From contig NZ_JAQBOD010000011.1 of NCBI RefSeq assembly GCF_028288205.1, positions 62,001-126,000 of the forward strand: a stretch of DNA of 64,000 bases, given 5' to 3'. How positions within the stretch are numbered: position 1 is the stretch's first letter; every line of letters starts with the position of its first letter. This stretch comes from Mucilaginibacter sp. (GTDB lineage: Bacteria > Bacteroidota > Bacteroidia > Sphingobacteriales > Sphingobacteriaceae). Below, one piece after another: positions 16,923 through 24,511 of the stretch. A program made the position numbers and the translations under genes. A model generated the notes under the pieces. It worked only from the letters and a program-made list of their open reading frames with translations, was not told where the DNA came from and ran no database searches.

Positions 16923-16974
16923 GACGAATTGCACGAATTTAGTTAGTGCTAATTTGAGGCAATTCGTCTTAATT
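16917..16974. terminator. bidirectional terminator-like inverted repeat shared by convergent genes
   Basis: AATTAAGACGAATTGC (16917-16932) / GCAATTCGTCTTAATT (16959-16974), perfect 16 bp, 26-nt loop. Confidence 0.6.
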
Positions 16975-17982
16975 TAATTTAATTCCCAATCCCGGCTCAT
17001 TACCCAATATATATTTACCCTCCACAAAATCAGGCGTTTTAAACGGGTTGTTGCTAATCAGGAATGGTCCGTCAATATCGGCCCAGTCGCATTGCGGAGC
17101 CAAAGCGGCGGCGGCAAGGGTGGCGCAGCTGGTTTCGCTCATGCAGCCCATCAATACTTTTAATCCCAGCTCTTTTGCTTTTACTATCATCTGGCGCGCC
17201 TCATACATCCCTGCCGATTTCATGAGCTTAACGTTAATGCCATGATATACACCTTTTGCTTTCTCCACATCCGGCAAGCGCTGTACAGCCTCATCGCCAA
17301 TAATAGGTATGGGGCTATTTTCGGTTAGCCACGCGTTGCCATCTATATCTGTTTTTAGCATGGGTTGCTCAATTAGTACCACACCTTGCTCCTGCAGCCA
17401 GTAAATCATGTCAAGGCTTTGTGCCCGGTCTGTCCAACCCTGGTTGGCATCTACATAAATTGGCACATCGGTTACCGAGCGGATAATGTTTATCAGTTCC
17501 TGATCACTATCCCTGCCTAATTTTACTTTTATCACTTTAAAACCTTCGGCTTCTTTTACTTTTTTCAGGAAAACTTCGGGCGTATCCATGCCAATAGTAA
17601 AGCTGGTTACCGGCATTAACGCGTGGTTGCTACCTGCCAGTTGCCAGCAGGGTTTTTTTAATAACTTTCCTTCCAGGTCGTGCAGGGCAATGTCTATGGC
17701 GGCTTTTATAGCCGGGTTGCCTGGCGCAATACTATCCAGGTAATTAATTATCGCCTCAAAATTAAAGGGAAATTTAACCTGATCTATATTTACCTTACGT
17801 AAAAATGTGGCGGCGCTTTCATGGCTCTCGCCCATGTAGGGCACCATTGAAGCCTCGCCATAACCTGTTTGGCCCTCGTGCTCAACCTGTACCAGCATTA
17901 GCGGGGTTGATGTACGCGAAAATTTGGCTATGGTAAACGGGTACTTTAATTCCAGTTCGAAGGGTTGATAAGTCAGTTTCAT
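16969..17982 (-). CDS. dipeptide epimerase (enolase superfamily, L-Ala-D/L-Glu epimerase-like)
   Basis: FKVIKVKLGRDSDQELI (KxK), VPIYVDANQGW, LIEQPM, GDEAVQ, GINVKLMKSAG. Confidence 0.88.
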   Translation of the reverse strand: MKLTYQPFELELKYPFTIAKFSRTSTPLMLVQVEHEGQTGYGEASMVPYMGESHESAATFLRKVNIDQVKFPFNFEAIINYLDSIAPGNPAIKAAIDIALHDLEGKLLKKPCWQLAGSNHALMPVTSFTIGMDTPEVFLKKVKEAEGFKVIKVKLGRDSDQELINIIRSVTDVPIYVDANQGWTDRAQSLDMIYWLQEQGVVLIEQPMLKTDIDGNAWLTENSPIPIIGDEAVQRLPDVEKAKGVYHGINVKLMKSAGMYEARQMIVKAKELGLKVLMGCMSETSCATLAAAALAPQCDWADIDGPFLISNNPFKTPDFVEGKYILGNEPGLGIKLN

Positions 17983-18084
17983 GTTATAAGCTCAAAGCTA
18001 AATTATTCTTTTAAAAATGATGGCTGTTGGTGGGGTAATAATTGTTTCATATAGGCACAAGCACGCCGGGCTCCATCATGTAAA

Positions 18085-18116
18085 CACCCACCTTCATCGC
18101 ACCGTCATTGCGAGGA
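18085..18116. repeat. widely dispersed CGTCATTGCGAGGAACGAAGCAATCTC-type repeat
   Basis: Sequence accgtcattgcgaggaacgaagcaatctct is visible directly. Confidence 0.7.
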
Positions 18117-18226
18117 ACGAAGCAATCTCTTCACATGCAAATCAAATAGGATGATGTTATAAGCACATATACACCACGCTTTTGGCTTACACTGAATATT
18201 GCGCCAGCTTAGTGCATATATTTAAA

Positions 18227-18270
18227 TTTGTATCTCCACAATTCTTTATTAATTTACAGGTCTCTGTAAA
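18227..18270 (+). promoter_or_regulatory. candidate promoter with overlapping dyad operator for the RM gene
   Basis: TTTG (18227-18230)-N19-TAATTTAC (18250-18257); dyad TTTACAG-gtct-CTGTAAA (18253-18270) overlaps the -7 element. Confidence 0.4.
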
Positions 18271-18305
18271 ACATGTACCTAAGTGCTTATCACCTCTAAT
18301 ATATT

Positions 18306-21071
18306 ATGCCTTTAAGCTGGAACGAAATTAAAGACCGTGCGCTTTCTTTCTCAAAAGAATGGGCAGATACCTTTATTGAAGATGCGGATGCCAAACCATT
18401 TTTAGATGCCTTTTTTTATGTATTCGGCGTTACGCGTAAAAAAATAGCCACATTTGAACATAAGGTTAAAAAATTAGACCACCACGACGGTTATATTGAC
18501 CTGCTTTGGAAAGGCACTTTGCTTGTTGAAATGAAAAGCAAGGGCAAAAATCTGGACAAAGCATACCAACAGGCCAAGGAATATTTGCAGGGCATTAAGC
18601 AACACGAACTACCCCAATACATTTTAATTTCAGACTTTCAACACTTTCGCCTATATGATTATGAAACAGGCGATATGCATAGTTTTACCCTCGGCGATTT
18701 TGTAAACCATATACAGCATTTTGGATTTATAGCCGGATATATAAAGCGGGTTTTTAAAGAGCAGGATCCTGTAAATATAAAAGCCGCCAATTTAATGGGC
18801 AAGCTGCACGACAGGCTAAAAGAAATTGGTTATACTGGTCATGCTTTGGAGTTGTATTTGGTGCGTTTGCTGTTTTGCTTGTTTGCCGAGGATACAACCA
18901 TTTTTGAAAAAGACCTATTATTTGATTTTATAACCGACCGTACAGCCGAAGATGGCAGCGATTTGGCTGCTCGTTTATCAGAGTTGTTTTATGTATTAAA
19001 TACACCCGAAGAAAAAAGGCTTAAAAATATAGATAACCAATTAAACCAATTTCCGTATGTAAATGGCAAACTGTTCGAAGAAACCTTGCCACCTGCTTCG
19101 TTTGATACAGCAATGCGAAATACATTACTTGAATGTTGCAGTTTAAATTGGGGCAGCATATCTCCCGCTATTTTTGGTTCAATGTTTCAAAGCGTAATGA
19201 ACCCTACAGAGCGTAGAAACTTGGGCGCACACTACACCAGTGAAAAGAATATCTTAAAAATTATTAAACCTTTGTTTTTAGATGAACTTTTGAAAGAATT
19301 TGAAGTAGTTAAGAGCAATAAAAATAAATTAGCAGAATTTCATAAAAAATTAAGTGAACTTAAATTTCTTGACCCTGCTTGCGGCTGCGGCAACTTTTTA
19401 ATTATTTCTTATCGCGAACTAAGATTGCTTGAAATAGAAATTATTAGACAGCGATTGAAACTTGAGGGTATTAGACAGGAAGTAGCGCGGGAAGCGCAGA
19501 TGAATGTGAACTATCTTGTACAGTGTGATGTGGATATGATGTATGGTATTGAATATGAAGAATTCCCAGCACAAATAGCGCAAGTTGCTATGTGGTTAAT
19601 GGACCATCAGATGAATATGGCTATTAGTCAAGAATTTGGCCAATACTTTGTGAGGCTTCCATTAAAAAAATCGGCGAAAATTGTACATGCTGATGCACTA
19701 CAAACTGATTGGGGAACTGTTGTATCAAAAACAGACCTTAGTTATATATTAGGAAACCCGCCGTTTATTGGCAGCAAAATAATGAAGCAATCGCAACGCG
19801 ATGAAATTGTAAAGCTGCTTGACAACGTAGACGGAAGCGGCACATTGGATTATGTAACAGGTTGGTATATTAAAGCAGCAAAATACATTCAGGATACCAC
19901 CATCAAAGTAGCATTTGTGTCTACCAATTCAATTGTACAAGGCGAGCAAACCAGCATATTATGGGGACAAATGCTGAATAAGTATAACATTACCATACAC
20001 TTCGCACATCGCACCTTTAAATGGAGGAATGAAGCCAAAGGTAATGCTGCTGTTTATTGTGTTATTATTGGCTTGGCTAATTTTGAAACAAACAATAAGT
20101 ATATCTATGAATATGATGATATAAAAGGTGATGCGCATGAGATTAAAGCAAAAAATATAAACCCCTATTTGGTAGATGCAAAAAATATATTGATTGAAAA
20201 AAAATCAAATCCTATTTGCAATGTGCCAAAAATGAATTTTGGAAATATGCCCTTAGATGGTGGAAATTTGCTTTTTTCCGATGCAGAAAAGGATGAATTT
20301 ATTTTAAAAGAACCCGATGCAGAGAAATATATAAAGCCGTTAATTTCAGCATATGAATTTTTAAATGGCGAAAAGCGTTGGTGTTTGTGGCTTTTAAACG
20401 CAGAGCCGAGTGAGCTAAAAAAAATGCCGGAAGTATTGAAACGAGTTGAATTGGTAAAAAAATTCAGATTAAATAGTGTTGCTCCTTCAACGCAAAAATT
20501 CGCTGCTACACCAACATTATTTCGAGATAGAAATCAACCTGAAACTTTCATTGTCATACCAAGAGTATCATCCGAAAATAGGCCTTATATACCTATTGGA
20601 TTTTTTGATAAAAATTCAATAGTAAGCGATACGTGTATGTCTATCCCCAACGCAATTCCTTATCAGTTTGGCATATTAACATCAACAATGCATATGGCTT
20701 GGGTTAAGTCGATTTGCGGACGGTTAAAAAGCGACTTTAGATATTCAAAAGACATTGTTTACAATAATTACCCCTGGCCACTTAATCCTACAGATAAACA
20801 AAAGCAAGCGATAGAAAATGCAGCGCAAAATGTATTAGATGCAAGAGCATTATTCCCCAATAGCAGCCTTGCTGACTTATACCACCCCCTAACAATGCCG
20901 CCAGTATTAGCAAAGGCACACCAGGCATTAGATAAGGCAGTTGATTTGGCCTATCGCCCACAACCCTTTACAACCGATGCCAACCGTATGGAATTTTTAT
21001 TTGCCTTGTATGAGCAATATACCGCTGATTTGTTTGCGGTATTAAAACCAAAAAAGAAAAAATTAACTTAG
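18306..21071 (+). CDS. single-polypeptide Type IIL (MmeI-like) restriction-modification enzyme
   Basis: N-terminal D-X9-EXK nuclease motif (DLLWKGTLLVEMK), motif I DPACGCGNFL, motif IV GNPPF, C-terminal TRD-like region; 921 aa. Confidence 0.88.
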   Translation: MPLSWNEIKDRALSFSKEWADTFIEDADAKPFLDAFFYVFGVTRKKIATFEHKVKKLDHHDGYIDLLWKGTLLVEMKSKGKNLDKAYQQAKEYLQGIKQHELPQYILISDFQHFRLYDYETGDMHSFTLGDFVNHIQHFGFIAGYIKRVFKEQDPVNIKAANLMGKLHDRLKEIGYTGHALELYLVRLLFCLFAEDTTIFEKDLLFDFITDRTAEDGSDLAARLSELFYVLNTPEEKRLKNIDNQLNQFPYVNGKLFEETLPPASFDTAMRNTLLECCSLNWGSISPAIFGSMFQSVMNPTERRNLGAHYTSEKNILKIIKPLFLDELLKEFEVVKSNKNKLAEFHKKLSELKFLDPACGCGNFLIISYRELRLLEIEIIRQRLKLEGIRQEVAREAQMNVNYLVQCDVDMMYGIEYEEFPAQIAQVAMWLMDHQMNMAISQEFGQYFVRLPLKKSAKIVHADALQTDWGTVVSKTDLSYILGNPPFIGSKIMKQSQRDEIVKLLDNVDGSGTLDYVTGWYIKAAKYIQDTTIKVAFVSTNSIVQGEQTSILWGQMLNKYNITIHFAHRTFKWRNEAKGNAAVYCVIIGLANFETNNKYIYEYDDIKGDAHEIKAKNINPYLVDAKNILIEKKSNPICNVPKMNFGNMPLDGGNLLFSDAEKDEFILKEPDAEKYIKPLISAYEFLNGEKRWCLWLLNAEPSELKKMPEVLKRVELVKKFRLNSVAPSTQKFAATPTLFRDRNQPETFIVIPRVSSENRPYIPIGFFDKNSIVSDTCMSIPNAIPYQFGILTSTMHMAWVKSICGRLKSDFRYSKDIVYNNYPWPLNPTDKQKQAIENAAQNVLDARALFPNSSLADLYHPLTMPPVLAKAHQALDKAVDLAYRPQPFTTDANRMEFLFALYEQYTADLFAVLKPKKKKLT

Positions 21072-21093
21072 CATAAGAATTAACTATAGTCAA

Positions 21094-22173
21094 ATGAAAG
21101 AAGATAATAGTGCCAATTTAGAATTATTTCCAGAAGATGATTCTTCGAACGAAGTATTAGTCGAATATGACATTACATCGTATCCTTCGGATTTAAGCTT
21201 GCGAAGCTTAAAGGAAATGTGGGATAGAAAGGATATTGTTATACCTGATTTTCAAAGAGAGTTTGTTTGGAAAATTAAGCAATCTACTCTTTTGATTGAA
21301 TCGTTCTTGGTTGGACTTCCAGTACCCCCTATATTTTTATATATAGATGATGATAATAAAAGTCTTGTTATTGATGGGCAACAAAGGTTGTTAAGCGTTA
21401 TTTACTTTTTTGAAGAATATTTTGGAATTGAAAATTCAAAGGGTAAAAGGCAAATATTTAGACTAAGTAGTCTAAACGAAAGAAGTCCTTATTATAATAA
21501 AAGATTTTCCGATTTGGAACCAAAAGACAGGCGAAAATTAGAAGGATCAGTATTAAGAGCTATTAACATCAGACAATTGTCCCCAAAAGAGGAAAGTACT
21601 AGTGTTTACCATATTTTTGAACGGTTAAACACGGGTGGTACACCCCTTGCTCCACAAGAAATTCGAAATTGTGTTTTTAGAGGAGGTTTTTTAAACTCTT
21701 TAAGAAAGTTAAATACAGATAAGAATTGGAGGGCAATTCTTTCTAAGACTCCTATAGATAAACACCAAAAAGACGTGGAATTGATTTTAAGAGTTTATGG
21801 GTTATCATATCATCTAGATTCTTATGAAAAACCAATGAAAGAATTTTTAAACAAAGTTGCTAATAAGTATAAAAATCCTTCGCCAAGCATTATTGAAAAA
21901 TTTAGCGAGGACTTTAAAAATACTTGTAAGATAATTAATGAACAACTAAGAAAAAAACCTTTTAATGTCCGTGGACCCTTGAATACGTCGGTTTTCGACT
22001 CTGTATTTTGTGTGATATTAAAAAATTTGAATACTCTTCCAAGTAATTTACATAACAGATACGAGGACCTGATAGTAGATCCGATTTTTGTAGATTATAC
22101 TACTTTAGCAACAACAGATGAAAAAATTGTAAAAGCTAGATTTAAATATGTTAATGACAAGCTGATAAAATAG
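21094..22173 (+). CDS. DUF262 (GmrS/ParB-like, DGQQR) domain protein lacking an evident DUF1524/HNH half
   Basis: IVIPDFQREFVWK; SLVIDGQQRLLSVIYFF; HIFERLNTGGTPLAPQEIRNCVFRGGF. Confidence 0.88.
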   Translation: MKEDNSANLELFPEDDSSNEVLVEYDITSYPSDLSLRSLKEMWDRKDIVIPDFQREFVWKIKQSTLLIESFLVGLPVPPIFLYIDDDNKSLVIDGQQRLLSVIYFFEEYFGIENSKGKRQIFRLSSLNERSPYYNKRFSDLEPKDRRKLEGSVLRAINIRQLSPKEESTSVYHIFERLNTGGTPLAPQEIRNCVFRGGFLNSLRKLNTDKNWRAILSKTPIDKHQKDVELILRVYGLSYHLDSYEKPMKEFLNKVANKYKNPSPSIIEKFSEDFKNTCKIINEQLRKKPFNVRGPLNTSVFDSVFCVILKNLNTLPSNLHNRYEDLIVDPIFVDYTTLATTDEKIVKARFKYVNDKLIK

Positions 22174-22174
22174 T

Positions 22175-22675
22175 ATGGCTTATTCTGATCGATTTATTTC
22201 AACTGATAATCTTATCATTAATTTAACCCCTTACCTTTCAACGATAACCGACTCAGCAATTTTAGCAAGTTATGCAGGGTTTTTATCGGTTAGCTCAATT
22301 ACGGTTTATGAACTTGCAATCAAAGATATTTTTAGTGATTTTGCCACAAGGAAACATTTGGTTTTTGGACACTTTGTCGAAAAATATCTTTCTCGCATTA
22401 ATGGTCAAATAAAATTAGGCGATCTAAAAGGCAATCAGATAAAAGTATTTGGAGGTAAATACTTGCAAAAGTTTGAAACAAGCGTAAATAGCAAAGAAGC
22501 TTTATATTTATTGAGTCATGGGAAAAGTCTAAAAAGTTCATACGACAACCTGATCATTTGCCGTCATGTATTCGTACATAGGGGAAATCCAACATTAACA
22601 ATTAATGAAGTAGTTGATAATTATCATATTGGCAAAGAAATTATTCACAGTTTATTTGATTCTATGAAAAGGTAA
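22175..22675 (+). CDS. HEPN-superfamily protein (RiboL-PSP/MAE_28990-like), predicted RNase
   Basis: RX4H motif RHVFVHRG near the C-terminus; SSITVYELAIKDIF; ATG 1 nt after the DUF262 stop. Confidence 0.75.
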   Translation: MAYSDRFISTDNLIINLTPYLSTITDSAILASYAGFLSVSSITVYELAIKDIFSDFATRKHLVFGHFVEKYLSRINGQIKLGDLKGNQIKVFGGKYLQKFETSVNSKEALYLLSHGKSLKSSYDNLIICRHVFVHRGNPTLTINEVVDNYHIGKEIIHSLFDSMKR

Positions 22676-22681
22676 CCCATG

Positions 22682-22867
22682 TTGGTCGAGGGATATTCCA
22701 CCCGTCCTTGTTGGTCGGGATATTCTTGTTGGTTGGGATATTCCATCCCGTCCTAAAAGCGGGAGGATCTGCGATCCGGGTGCGGTGGCAATTAATCCAA
22801 AAGATGGTGCAAGGGTAGGTCAGGTGGGGTCAGGTCCAATGTTGGTCGGGATATTCCATTCCGTCCA
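22682..22867. repeat. degenerate cluster of TTGGTCGGGATATTCCATCCCGTCC units
   Basis: Copies near 22682, 22709, 22729 and 22842; a further copy at 23224 with shared CCTAAAAGCGGGAGGATCTGC tail. Confidence 0.7.
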
Positions 22868-22990
22868 CTGGTGCAAGCCAAGCGTGGCGTACTTGTGCCT
22901 ATACCACCATGCAAATAGTATTATAGTGATGTCAGAAGTACCCTTACCCGCTTGCCATCTCTACATACATGCGCCAGCAGCAATGGCGTG

Positions 22991-23215
22991 ATTTTGTTTC
23001 ATCTTGTTTCAAAATCTTGTTTCACCACTTCTAAAATTAGCAATTTGTAATTATTTGATTGTCAATGAAAAAGCATAATATTATACCTAAAAATACTGAC
23101 GAATAAGTTGTTACATTTTGTTACATCACTTTTTGGCAAAATGCTTATTTTCAATATATTAACCCGAAATCTTGTTTCACTTGTTACATTTTGTTTCACA
23201 CTCGCGTGTAACAAG
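22991..23215. repeat. dispersed TTGTTTCA/TTGTTACA phased-repeat element, copy 2
   Basis: Same architecture as 13621-13826, including GACGAATAAGTTGTTACATTTTGTTACATCACTTTTT and terminal CTCGCGTGTAACAAG. Confidence 0.75.
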
Positions 23216-23313
23216 ATTCGCTTTTGGTCGGAATATTCCATCCTGTCCTAAAAGCGGGAGGATCTGCAATTAGGGGTGTTAGAAAGATGCTAAAGAAGCG
23301 GCGGGCGGTGCGA

Positions 23314-23421
23314 TTCCCTCCCAACGGGAGGGTGCAGGGAGGGGTAAATGAAGCGATTTATATCGGCGAAACCCCTCCCTGCCACTTCACAACCAGCCGC
23401 ACCCCTCCCGTGGGGAGGGAA
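23314..23421. repeat. multi-arm palindromic element (CCCTCCC/GGGAGGG family)
   Basis: Outer arms TTCCCTCCC (23314-23322)/GGGAGGGAA (23413-23421); inner arms GCAGGGAGGGGT (23334-23345)/ACCCCTCCCTGC (23371-23382). Confidence 0.7.
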
Positions 23422-23485
23422 CTTGTTCACCCGTTCGCGGATGGCGCGGGTGAGCAGAACAAGGGAGATGAGTTAATAAACACGC

Positions 23486-23517
23486 TTTGCTTAACCTAAA
23501 TCACATTACTATCTTTG
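23486..23517 (+). promoter_or_regulatory. Bacteroidota-type promoter abutting the start codon of the 23522 gene
   Basis: TTTG (23486-23489)-N20-TATCTTTG (23510-23517); ATG at 23522. Confidence 0.6.
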
Positions 23518-23521
23518 TGGC

Positions 23522-24511
23522 ATGCCACCAAAAATATATTCGCCGTTCGATGCTTCAAACTTTAGTAACCGGAGCTGTTTTCTTACGGGCGAAACCCTAA
23601 GCAGCGAAGAGGAAAAGATACAGGTATTTCCGCAATGGTTAATGAGCCTTTATAACCTGGAGGACCAGCCATTTAAATTGCTGGACGAAAGCATGGCTAC
23701 CTACAAAGATATTAAGCTGCCCTGCTCGGCCACGGTTAACGAAACTTATTTAGAGCCGTTAGAAGCCGAAATAGCTGCTGCTTTTGATGGCGGATATAAC
23801 GCGGTTAAAGCGCTTGAAGAGTTAAAGCTATTTCAATGGGCGGGCAAATTGCTTTACGGCATCATATTTAATGAGGTACAATCCGGCATTAAACTACAGC
23901 GTTCGCAAGGCGAAGAGTTTAACATTTCGCAATCTATCATCCATAAATTCAGTAACCTGCATTTAATGCTGCAAAGCATTAATCAGCCTATATTATTTGA
24001 AGATTTTAAACCGTTCAGCCTGTTTTTATTTAAGGTTAGCAATAATGAGCAGGAATTTGGCTACCGCGATGAGATCAATACGCTTACCTTTTCTTTACGC
24101 ATAAAAGATTTTGGCCTGATAATTTGTTTCCAGGATAACGGGGCCAACCGCCACTATCACCGCGAAATGTTAGCGAAAATAGGCGATCAAACCCTGCATC
24201 CCATACAGTTTGAAGAGTTTAGCGGGCGGGTGTTTTACTCGGCCTACCTGTTTAACCGCTTGCCCGAATATAATATTCTGCCTGTTGACGAAGAGGTTTA
24301 CATTGAGGCCATGCCGCTACGCGGAATGAGCAGCAAACCCCTGTTTGATAATTGGCAAAACAAAATTTACGGACAAGTACTGGAAAGTTTCTGGAAAAAC
24401 TGGGGCTTCCTGCTGTTAGAGATCATTAAAAACCCCGAAGAGCCCATGAGTTTTTTGTTTGATGCCGATGGTAATTTTGTTAGTGAAGAATTGATTGCAC
24501 TCCCCCACTAA
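23522..24511 (+). CDS. hypothetical protein
   Basis: 329 aa continuous frame with host-like codon use; no family recognised. Confidence 0.7.
   Translation: MPPKIYSPFDASNFSNRSCFLTGETLSSEEEKIQVFPQWLMSLYNLEDQPFKLLDESMATYKDIKLPCSATVNETYLEPLEAEIAAAFDGGYNAVKALEELKLFQWAGKLLYGIIFNEVQSGIKLQRSQGEEFNISQSIIHKFSNLHLMLQSINQPILFEDFKPFSLFLFKVSNNEQEFGYRDEINTLTFSLRIKDFGLIICFQDNGANRHYHREMLAKIGDQTLHPIQFEEFSGRVFYSAYLFNRLPEYNILPVDEEVYIEAMPLRGMSSKPLFDNWQNKIYGQVLESFWKNWGFLLLEIIKNPEEPMSFLFDADGNFVSEELIALPH

Follow-up and report, generated by a model that had tools for sequence, protein, structure and literature searches.

PD-T4-2, from Escherichia coli ECOR65, is a validated antiphage system: it blocks phage T4 in K-12 as well as in the strain it comes from, and T4 plaques on ECOR65 without PD-T4-2 (PMC9519451). 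Its components are a DUF262 protein and a HEPN protein of the PF18735 type (PMC10952713). We find the same two kinds of gene in Mucilaginibacter sp., in a 64,000-nucleotide stretch of contig NZ_JAQBOD010000011.1 that we will call the window, where they directly follow the gene for a single-chain restriction-modification (RM) enzyme of the MmeI type. Judging by its sequence, the window's pair is of a known kind that is similar to PD-T4-2. The PADLOC model PD-T4-2_A matches the window's DUF262 protein (7.5e-49), but the NsnA model scores higher (1.2e-62) and is the closest; the PD-T4-2_B models miss the window's HEPN protein; and, unlike PD-T4-2, the window's pair has an RM gene directly upstream. 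NsnA is part of Nsn, which we take to be Menshen (NsnABC; Millman et al. 2022). Menshen includes an OLD-type ATPase/nuclease, whereas no such gene is found beside the window's DUF262 protein, whose partner is a HEPN protein.

DUF262 is also the nucleoside triphosphatase (NTPase) domain of GmrSD, BrxU, and SspE, and in BrxU and SspE it controls a nuclease (PMC10952713). The window's protein shares with these systems the domain, the DGQQR motif, and the fold (matches to 7p9k and 6jiv). In contrast to them, it has no DUF1524/HNH nuclease, and a separate protein, an RNase, is the putative effector. That protein resembles known HEPN RNases in having an all-helical HEPN domain with the motif RX4H. 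In HEPN-MNT (type VII toxin-antitoxin) systems, the partner of HEPN is an MNT nucleotidyltransferase, whereas here it is DUF262. Finally, the survey of Anantharaman et al. 2013 tabulates "RiboL-PSP-HEPN, operon with ParB" and also a MAE_28990 HEPN operon with a ParB nuclease and a DNA methylase (PMC3710099). These are the kinds of genes that we find in the window, although the methylase is not stated there to be a single-chain RM enzyme of the MmeI type. The original prediction for this locus, which was made from the letters and the open reading frames, stated that DUF262-HEPN adjacency had been noted in surveys of HEPN proteins. It also considered the system to be little described, which does not hold, given the validation of PD-T4-2 (PMC9519451, PMC10952713) and the HEPN-ParB operons tabulated in 2013.

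We propose that a single acquired island of 5.5 kb in the window combines two modules for defence, namely an RM enzyme and an RNase alarm that works independently of it, which arrived together and are probably co-expressed. We put the probability of this reading at roughly 60%. The genes and their motifs (lengths in amino acids, aa) are:

18306..21071, plus strand: MmeI-type (Type IIL) single-chain RM enzyme, 921 aa (from Pfam, PDB 5hr4, the PADLOC IIG model, and specificity residues)
18498..18536, plus strand: nuclease motif D65-X9-E75-M-K77, aligned with D70/E80/K82 of MmeI
19371..19400, plus strand: S-adenosylmethionine-binding motif DPACGCGNFL, residues 356-365, in the adenine methyltransferase domain
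19755..19766, plus strand: catalytic motif NPPF, residues 484-487, in the methyltransferase domain
21094..22173, plus strand: DUF262 (GmrSD_N) protein, 359 aa, with a ParB/Srx-like NTPase fold and without DUF1524 (from Pfam, PADLOC, and an AlphaFold model)
21370..21387, plus strand: nucleotide-pocket motif IDGQQR, residues 93-98, conserved in homologues
22175..22675, plus strand: HEPN protein (RiboL-PSP-HEPN family), 166 aa, a predicted metal-independent endoribonuclease (from Pfam and an all-helical model)
22562..22579, plus strand: active-site motif RHVFVH (RX4H), residues 130-135, conserved in homologues

The gene order is tight, with 22 bp between the MmeI and DUF262 genes and 1 bp between the DUF262 and HEPN genes. 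These spacings, the three reading frames with their lengths, and the motifs are all as originally claimed.

We scanned one genome per species for close relatives of the DUF262 protein and obtained 39 loci, from Bacteroidota, Pseudomonadota, Omnitrophota, Verrucomicrobiota, Acidobacteriota, cyanobacteria, a metagenome-assembled genome of Micrarchaeota, and others. A HEPN-like gene lies directly downstream in 37 of the 38 close relatives that have room on the contig, and the genes that flank these pairs have almost nothing in common. The two proteins are co-inherited: their distance matrices are correlated with a Mantel r of 0.90 across 31 core loci, and none of 2,000 permutations reached this value. 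The pair is carried by IncX1, IncF, and other plasmids, by P2-like phages, and on prophage contigs, and its neighbours change. Among the plasmid and phage loci that we read, 11 of 12 have the HEPN-like gene downstream of DUF262, usually within a few bases; at one plasmid locus (L259), a DUF262 gene without a partner is adjoined by a resistance gene and IS26. In IMG/VR, an RX4H protein is next to DUF262 at 41 of 43 loci, 10 of which are recognised by a profile of the window's HEPN family. Searches of IMG/VR and of plasmids with the window's HEPN protein alone gave no match; on plasmids, HEPN missed the pairs that DUF262 found because HEPN diverges faster. In the wider and more divergent DUF262 family of Bacteroidota, a HEPN-like neighbour was recognised at only 27 of 60 loci, so DUF262 also has other partners.

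The host genome has a second pair on contig 47 (L213, 3992-5778), with no RM gene adjoining. Its DUF262 protein matches PF03235 (3.2e-22), its HEPN protein matches PF18735 (5.9e-10) and has the motif RGEIAH, and the two genes overlap by 1 bp. Furthermore, across 84 pair loci from the close family and from viruses, none has a methyltransferase tightly upstream or an MmeI gene nearby. Conversely, we found MmeI-type enzymes in 43 of 395 sampled Bacteroidia-type genomes, and none of these 43 loci, all of which we read, has a relative of the DUF262-HEPN pair nearby. The combination of MmeI with the pair was seen only at this locus. At L333 (1512-5357, minus strand), an MmeI-like fragment lies upstream of DUF262 and an ATPase-like gene, which looks like a Menshen-like arrangement next to an RM gene in decay. 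These comparisons indicate that DUF262 and HEPN are a conserved, mobile two-gene unit on their own and that MmeI is no part of it. We considered a conserved MmeI-DUF262-HEPN system of three genes and rejected it on these counts. The original prediction had treated the three genes as one system, but in all close relatives the pair stands complete in the absence of MmeI, and the host has an RM-free second copy of it. What had been observed was real and the interpretation was partly over-reaching: genes of known kinds stand side by side.

The RM enzyme itself contains the five MmeI Pfam domains in order (by E-value: methyltransferase, 1.1e-90; target recognition domain, 1.2e-78; N, 8.1e-43; C, 6.2e-34; and spacer, 7.6e-24). 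It aligns end to end with MmeI (PDB 5hr4; 1127 bits) and scores 1231.6 bits against the PADLOC IIG model. In MmeI, mutating D70, E80, or K82 abolishes cleavage (PMC4833311). By these similarities, the protein is an ordinary and complete MmeI-type (Type IIL) enzyme with intact catalytic motifs. Following the specificity-residue rules for MmeI (PMC4833311), we predict that it recognises N-A-G-(R or G)-A-G. The specificity residues (F645, M648, R753, D775, T776, K808, D810, and R812) form a coherent set: M648 (corresponding to K645M) predicts A at position 2; R753 and D775 predict G at position 3; T776 and R812 predict G or R at position 4; position 5 is the methylated A; and K808 and D810 predict G at position 6. 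Domain order, length, and catalytic residues are as in MmeI from Methylophilus methylotrophus, but the residues for recognition are different at positions 2, 3, and 6, so another site is predicted. CstMI (AAGGAG) and SdeAI (CAGRAG) fit the predicted pattern. Type IIL enzymes methylate one strand and cleave some 20 bases downstream.

The island and its non-coding features are:

18026..23508, no strand: island, a 5,483-bp insertion (junction GATGGCT|ATCTTTG from congener L044; empty site in 21 congeners)
22676..23430, no strand: repeat-rich non-coding tail of the island; genomic repeats present in many copies lie at about 22988-23226 and about 23275-23425
18223..18230, plus strand: weak candidate Bacteroidetes-type -7 box, TAAATTTG, 75 bp upstream of the MmeI gene

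On its left is a conserved gene of the enolase-superfamily epimerase type (16969-17982, minus strand), and on its right a conserved gene for a 329-aa protein (23522-24511, plus strand). These two genes are adjacent in 21 congeners, with 53 to 300 bp between them, and we set the edges of the island by comparison with the closest spacer, that of L044. The empty site is exact, and the insert contains no genes besides MmeI, DUF262, and HEPN; the rest is the repeat-rich tail. Among the host and 59 related genomes, only the host has the window's HEPN gene. One insertion carries the three genes, and the description of a compact co-directional island with an operon-like layout was apt. All three genes are richer in AT than the DNA around them. 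Their GC content at third codon positions (GC3) is 0.327 for MmeI and 0.234 for the still more AT-rich pair (z = 3.7), so a single arrival does not imply a single origin; the difference fits a different origin of MmeI and the pair.

The spacing of the genes, together with the lack of any plus-strand -7 box in the 1,000 bp preceding the DUF262 start, suggests that one promoter upstream of 18306 may drive all three. The TAAATTTG box is weak evidence for its position because the pattern is no commoner than chance. A scan for sigma-70 promoters found 30 where 20.6 were expected (standard deviation 4.6), with a consensus that is unfit for the host's phylum. Across the island, an Rfam scan gave no match and a terminator scan did no better than chance.

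Repeats at the edges of the island (18102-18145 and about 22988-23425) have many copies in the host genome; they comprise the GTCATTGCGAGGAACGAAGC family, an element of roughly 230 bp that is present about 13 times, and a GGGAGGG repeat that occurs across the genus. A 23-nt inverted repeat (18050-18072/22881-22903, 87% complementary) flanks the three genes and could represent the ends of an element; it sits inside the insertion edges, and the island has no transposase. In the region 23486-23517, the insertion point coincides with a -7-like box, TATCTTTG, that belongs to the downstream gene. A TTTG from the island's right end, 20 nt upstream, may rebuild this gene's promoter, or it may be there by chance.

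One insertion and tight spacing would also be seen if the three genes formed an integrated system, in which DUF262 would read the methylation or cleavage state of MmeI and HEPN would fire upon failed restriction, guarding the RM enzyme much as PrrC does. The original prediction, in its strong form, amounts to this, and we consider it rather unlikely. The neighbours of MmeI genes elsewhere give it some encouragement. Among 37 intact MmeI genes from Bacteroidia with both neighbours present, a co-directional gene within 60 bp follows 22 and precedes 8 (Fisher p = 0.002, which is only indicative because the genomes compared are related and the genes were called by simple reading-frame rules). The MmeI genes (loci L111-L113 and L171-L210) are often the first in a short operon whose second gene varies and often resembles an abortive-infection effector. 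In L111, from a congener with a 72% identical MmeI, the downstream partner is a putative AbiC-like protein; in L172, it is an AbiU2 HEPN protein. The partners in L171, L181, and L200 have a HEPN-like RX4H motif (with no confirmation of the family from Pfam), and further partners are Schlafen AlbA proteins and a KAP NTPase. In an MmeI subfamily at about 40% identity, the partners are a helicase and GIY-YIG. Against an integrated system stand the absence of tight upstream methyltransferases and of MmeI from the 84 pair loci, the absence of the pair from the 43 MmeI loci, the difference in GC3, and the RM-free pair elsewhere in the host genome.

More distant pairs do have other methyltransferases directly upstream, which also favours an integrated system. 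We identified such cases by a profile search in Bacteroidota and by reading plasmids and phages. Two Bacteroidota loci, L292 (3395-6201, reverse strand of the locus) and L308 (3201-6239), have the tight order C5 methyltransferase, DUF262, HEPN. Their C5 enzymes are 57% identical to each other, there is no endonuclease gene, and housekeeping genes lie on both sides; these islands with a solo C5 methyltransferase might act like restriction systems but with an RNase as effector. In Akkermansia phage Chambord (L138, 1854-4664), the gene for another C5 enzyme (about 24%) overlaps the DUF262 gene, which is followed by a HEPN gene. L294 and L291 have an N4/N6-type enzyme upstream of the pair, and in L291 an endonuclease-like gene comes after HEPN. 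On plasmids of Enterococcus faecium, an annotated restriction endonuclease and an Eco57I/helicase enzyme precede DUF262 and its partner; on pK195-6b-A (L264, 4296-11445, reverse strand), this tight operon includes a 273-aa protein with the motif RHRYAH. Eight of the E. faecium plasmids carry an identical DUF262 gene. Within the 60 wider-family loci of Bacteroidota, 4 have a tight upstream methyltransferase. By this reading of their sequences, unrelated methyltransferases stand directly upstream of distant pairs at least four times, in Bacteroidota, an Akkermansia phage, and E. faecium plasmids. The original prediction had looked to the neighbourhoods of other DUF262-HEPN pairs for RM genes: methyltransferases of other kinds are there in more distant pairs, which keeps a layered arrangement plausible, but MmeI is not.

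Turning to the pair itself, the DUF262 protein matches PF03235 (GmrSD_N/DUF262; 7.9e-29). Its AlphaFold model has a mean pLDDT (per-residue confidence) of 82.7 and a pTM (whole-fold confidence) of only 0.52, and the chain ends after a helical C-terminal half. The best match in a fold search is BrxU (7p9k), followed by Noc/ParB and SspE (6jiv). PD-T4-2_A matches all 38 DUF262 homologues, and D94, G95, Q97, and R98 are invariant across them; a divergent member (L003) has DGFQR in place of DGQQR. GmrSD and BrxU are the best-known bearers of DUF262, and the 2013 survey named it a ParB nuclease (PMC3710099), so the protein might act on DNA, either like ParB or in Type IV restriction, with HEPN as an accessory. 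We think this very improbable. Neither Pfam nor the fold search identifies a DUF1524/HNH or other nuclease domain in the DUF262 protein, none of the three island proteins or the product of the next gene has a DUF1524/HNH match in Pfam, and the conserved catalytic motif RX4H is in the partner. The claim that this DUF262 protein lacks the usual nuclease and has a predicted RNase as its partner instead was thus well founded.

The HEPN protein matches PF18735 (HEPN_RiboL-PSP; 2.4e-13, over the curated cut-off), and its model is all-helical, with seven helices and a mean pLDDT of 93.5. A PADLOC scan left the protein unassigned. R130, H135, and E46 are invariant across 36 homologues; given this and the invariance in DUF262, the RX4H and DGQQR motifs are not due to chance.

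Under the two-module reading, the MmeI-type enzyme would methylate the host at a six-base site and cut unmethylated incoming DNA, independently of the pair. DUF262 would be an NTP-dependent sensor and regulator that keeps HEPN inactive. Infection, possibly by a phage whose modified bases MmeI cannot cut, would shift the state of DUF262; the HEPN RNase would be set free to cut RNA at its RX4H site; and growth or phage production would stop. We infer the antiphage role of the pair from PD-T4-2 and the NTPase switch of DUF262 from BrxU and SspE; the RNase activity of HEPN, its trigger, the co-transcription of the three genes, and the functional complementarity with MmeI are likewise putative. Several points weigh against this scheme. 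Inhibition of HEPN by DUF262, rather than activation, is assumed. The PD-T4-2_B models do not match the window's HEPN protein even at an E-value of 1 (and match at most 3 of the 36 members of its family), so the antiphage role is transferred from a relative at the level of the Pfam family. Also, a Foldseek search of the PDB with the HEPN model returned nothing significant, and its weak matches include HEPN-MNT toxins.

The resemblance to those toxins bears on another explanation: that HEPN is a toxin and DUF262 its antitoxin, acting possibly through an NTP-dependent modification of HEPN like that made by MNT, with maintenance of the island or plasmid as the main role and defence as a secondary one. 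The order of the two genes with their 1-bp spacing would suit this, as would the location of pairs on conjugative plasmids, where one (L137) adjoins pemIK, and the relation of the ParB/Srx fold of DUF262 to nucleotide-using enzymes. On the other hand, the DGQQR pocket is that of the NTP-driven defence switches BrxU and SspE, and the nearest tested relative came from a phage selection. On balance, we think that a toxin-antitoxin role is unlikely.

The window adds one more DNA-modifying enzyme to those found upstream of DUF262-HEPN pairs, and this recurrent theme is possibly meaningful. A bolder and quite doubtful idea is that DUF262-HEPN is a general RNase alarm that plugs repeatedly into methyltransferase genes, so that DNA methylation status triggers the destruction of RNA. 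If so, the window would be the case with a complete Type IIL enzyme plugged in, and the islands with a C5 methyltransferase, DUF262, and HEPN (L292, L308, and the Akkermansia phage) would be restriction-like systems with an RNase effector. In any case, the locus is a clean natural construct, with a 5.5-kb insert, an exact empty site, and an RM-free second pair in the same genome. It offers a way to find out if DNA modification is what DUF262 reads and if RM enzymes work with RNase effectors as layers. Because unrelated methyltransferases have repeatedly come to lie upstream of such pairs, the question is also open to a comparative test.

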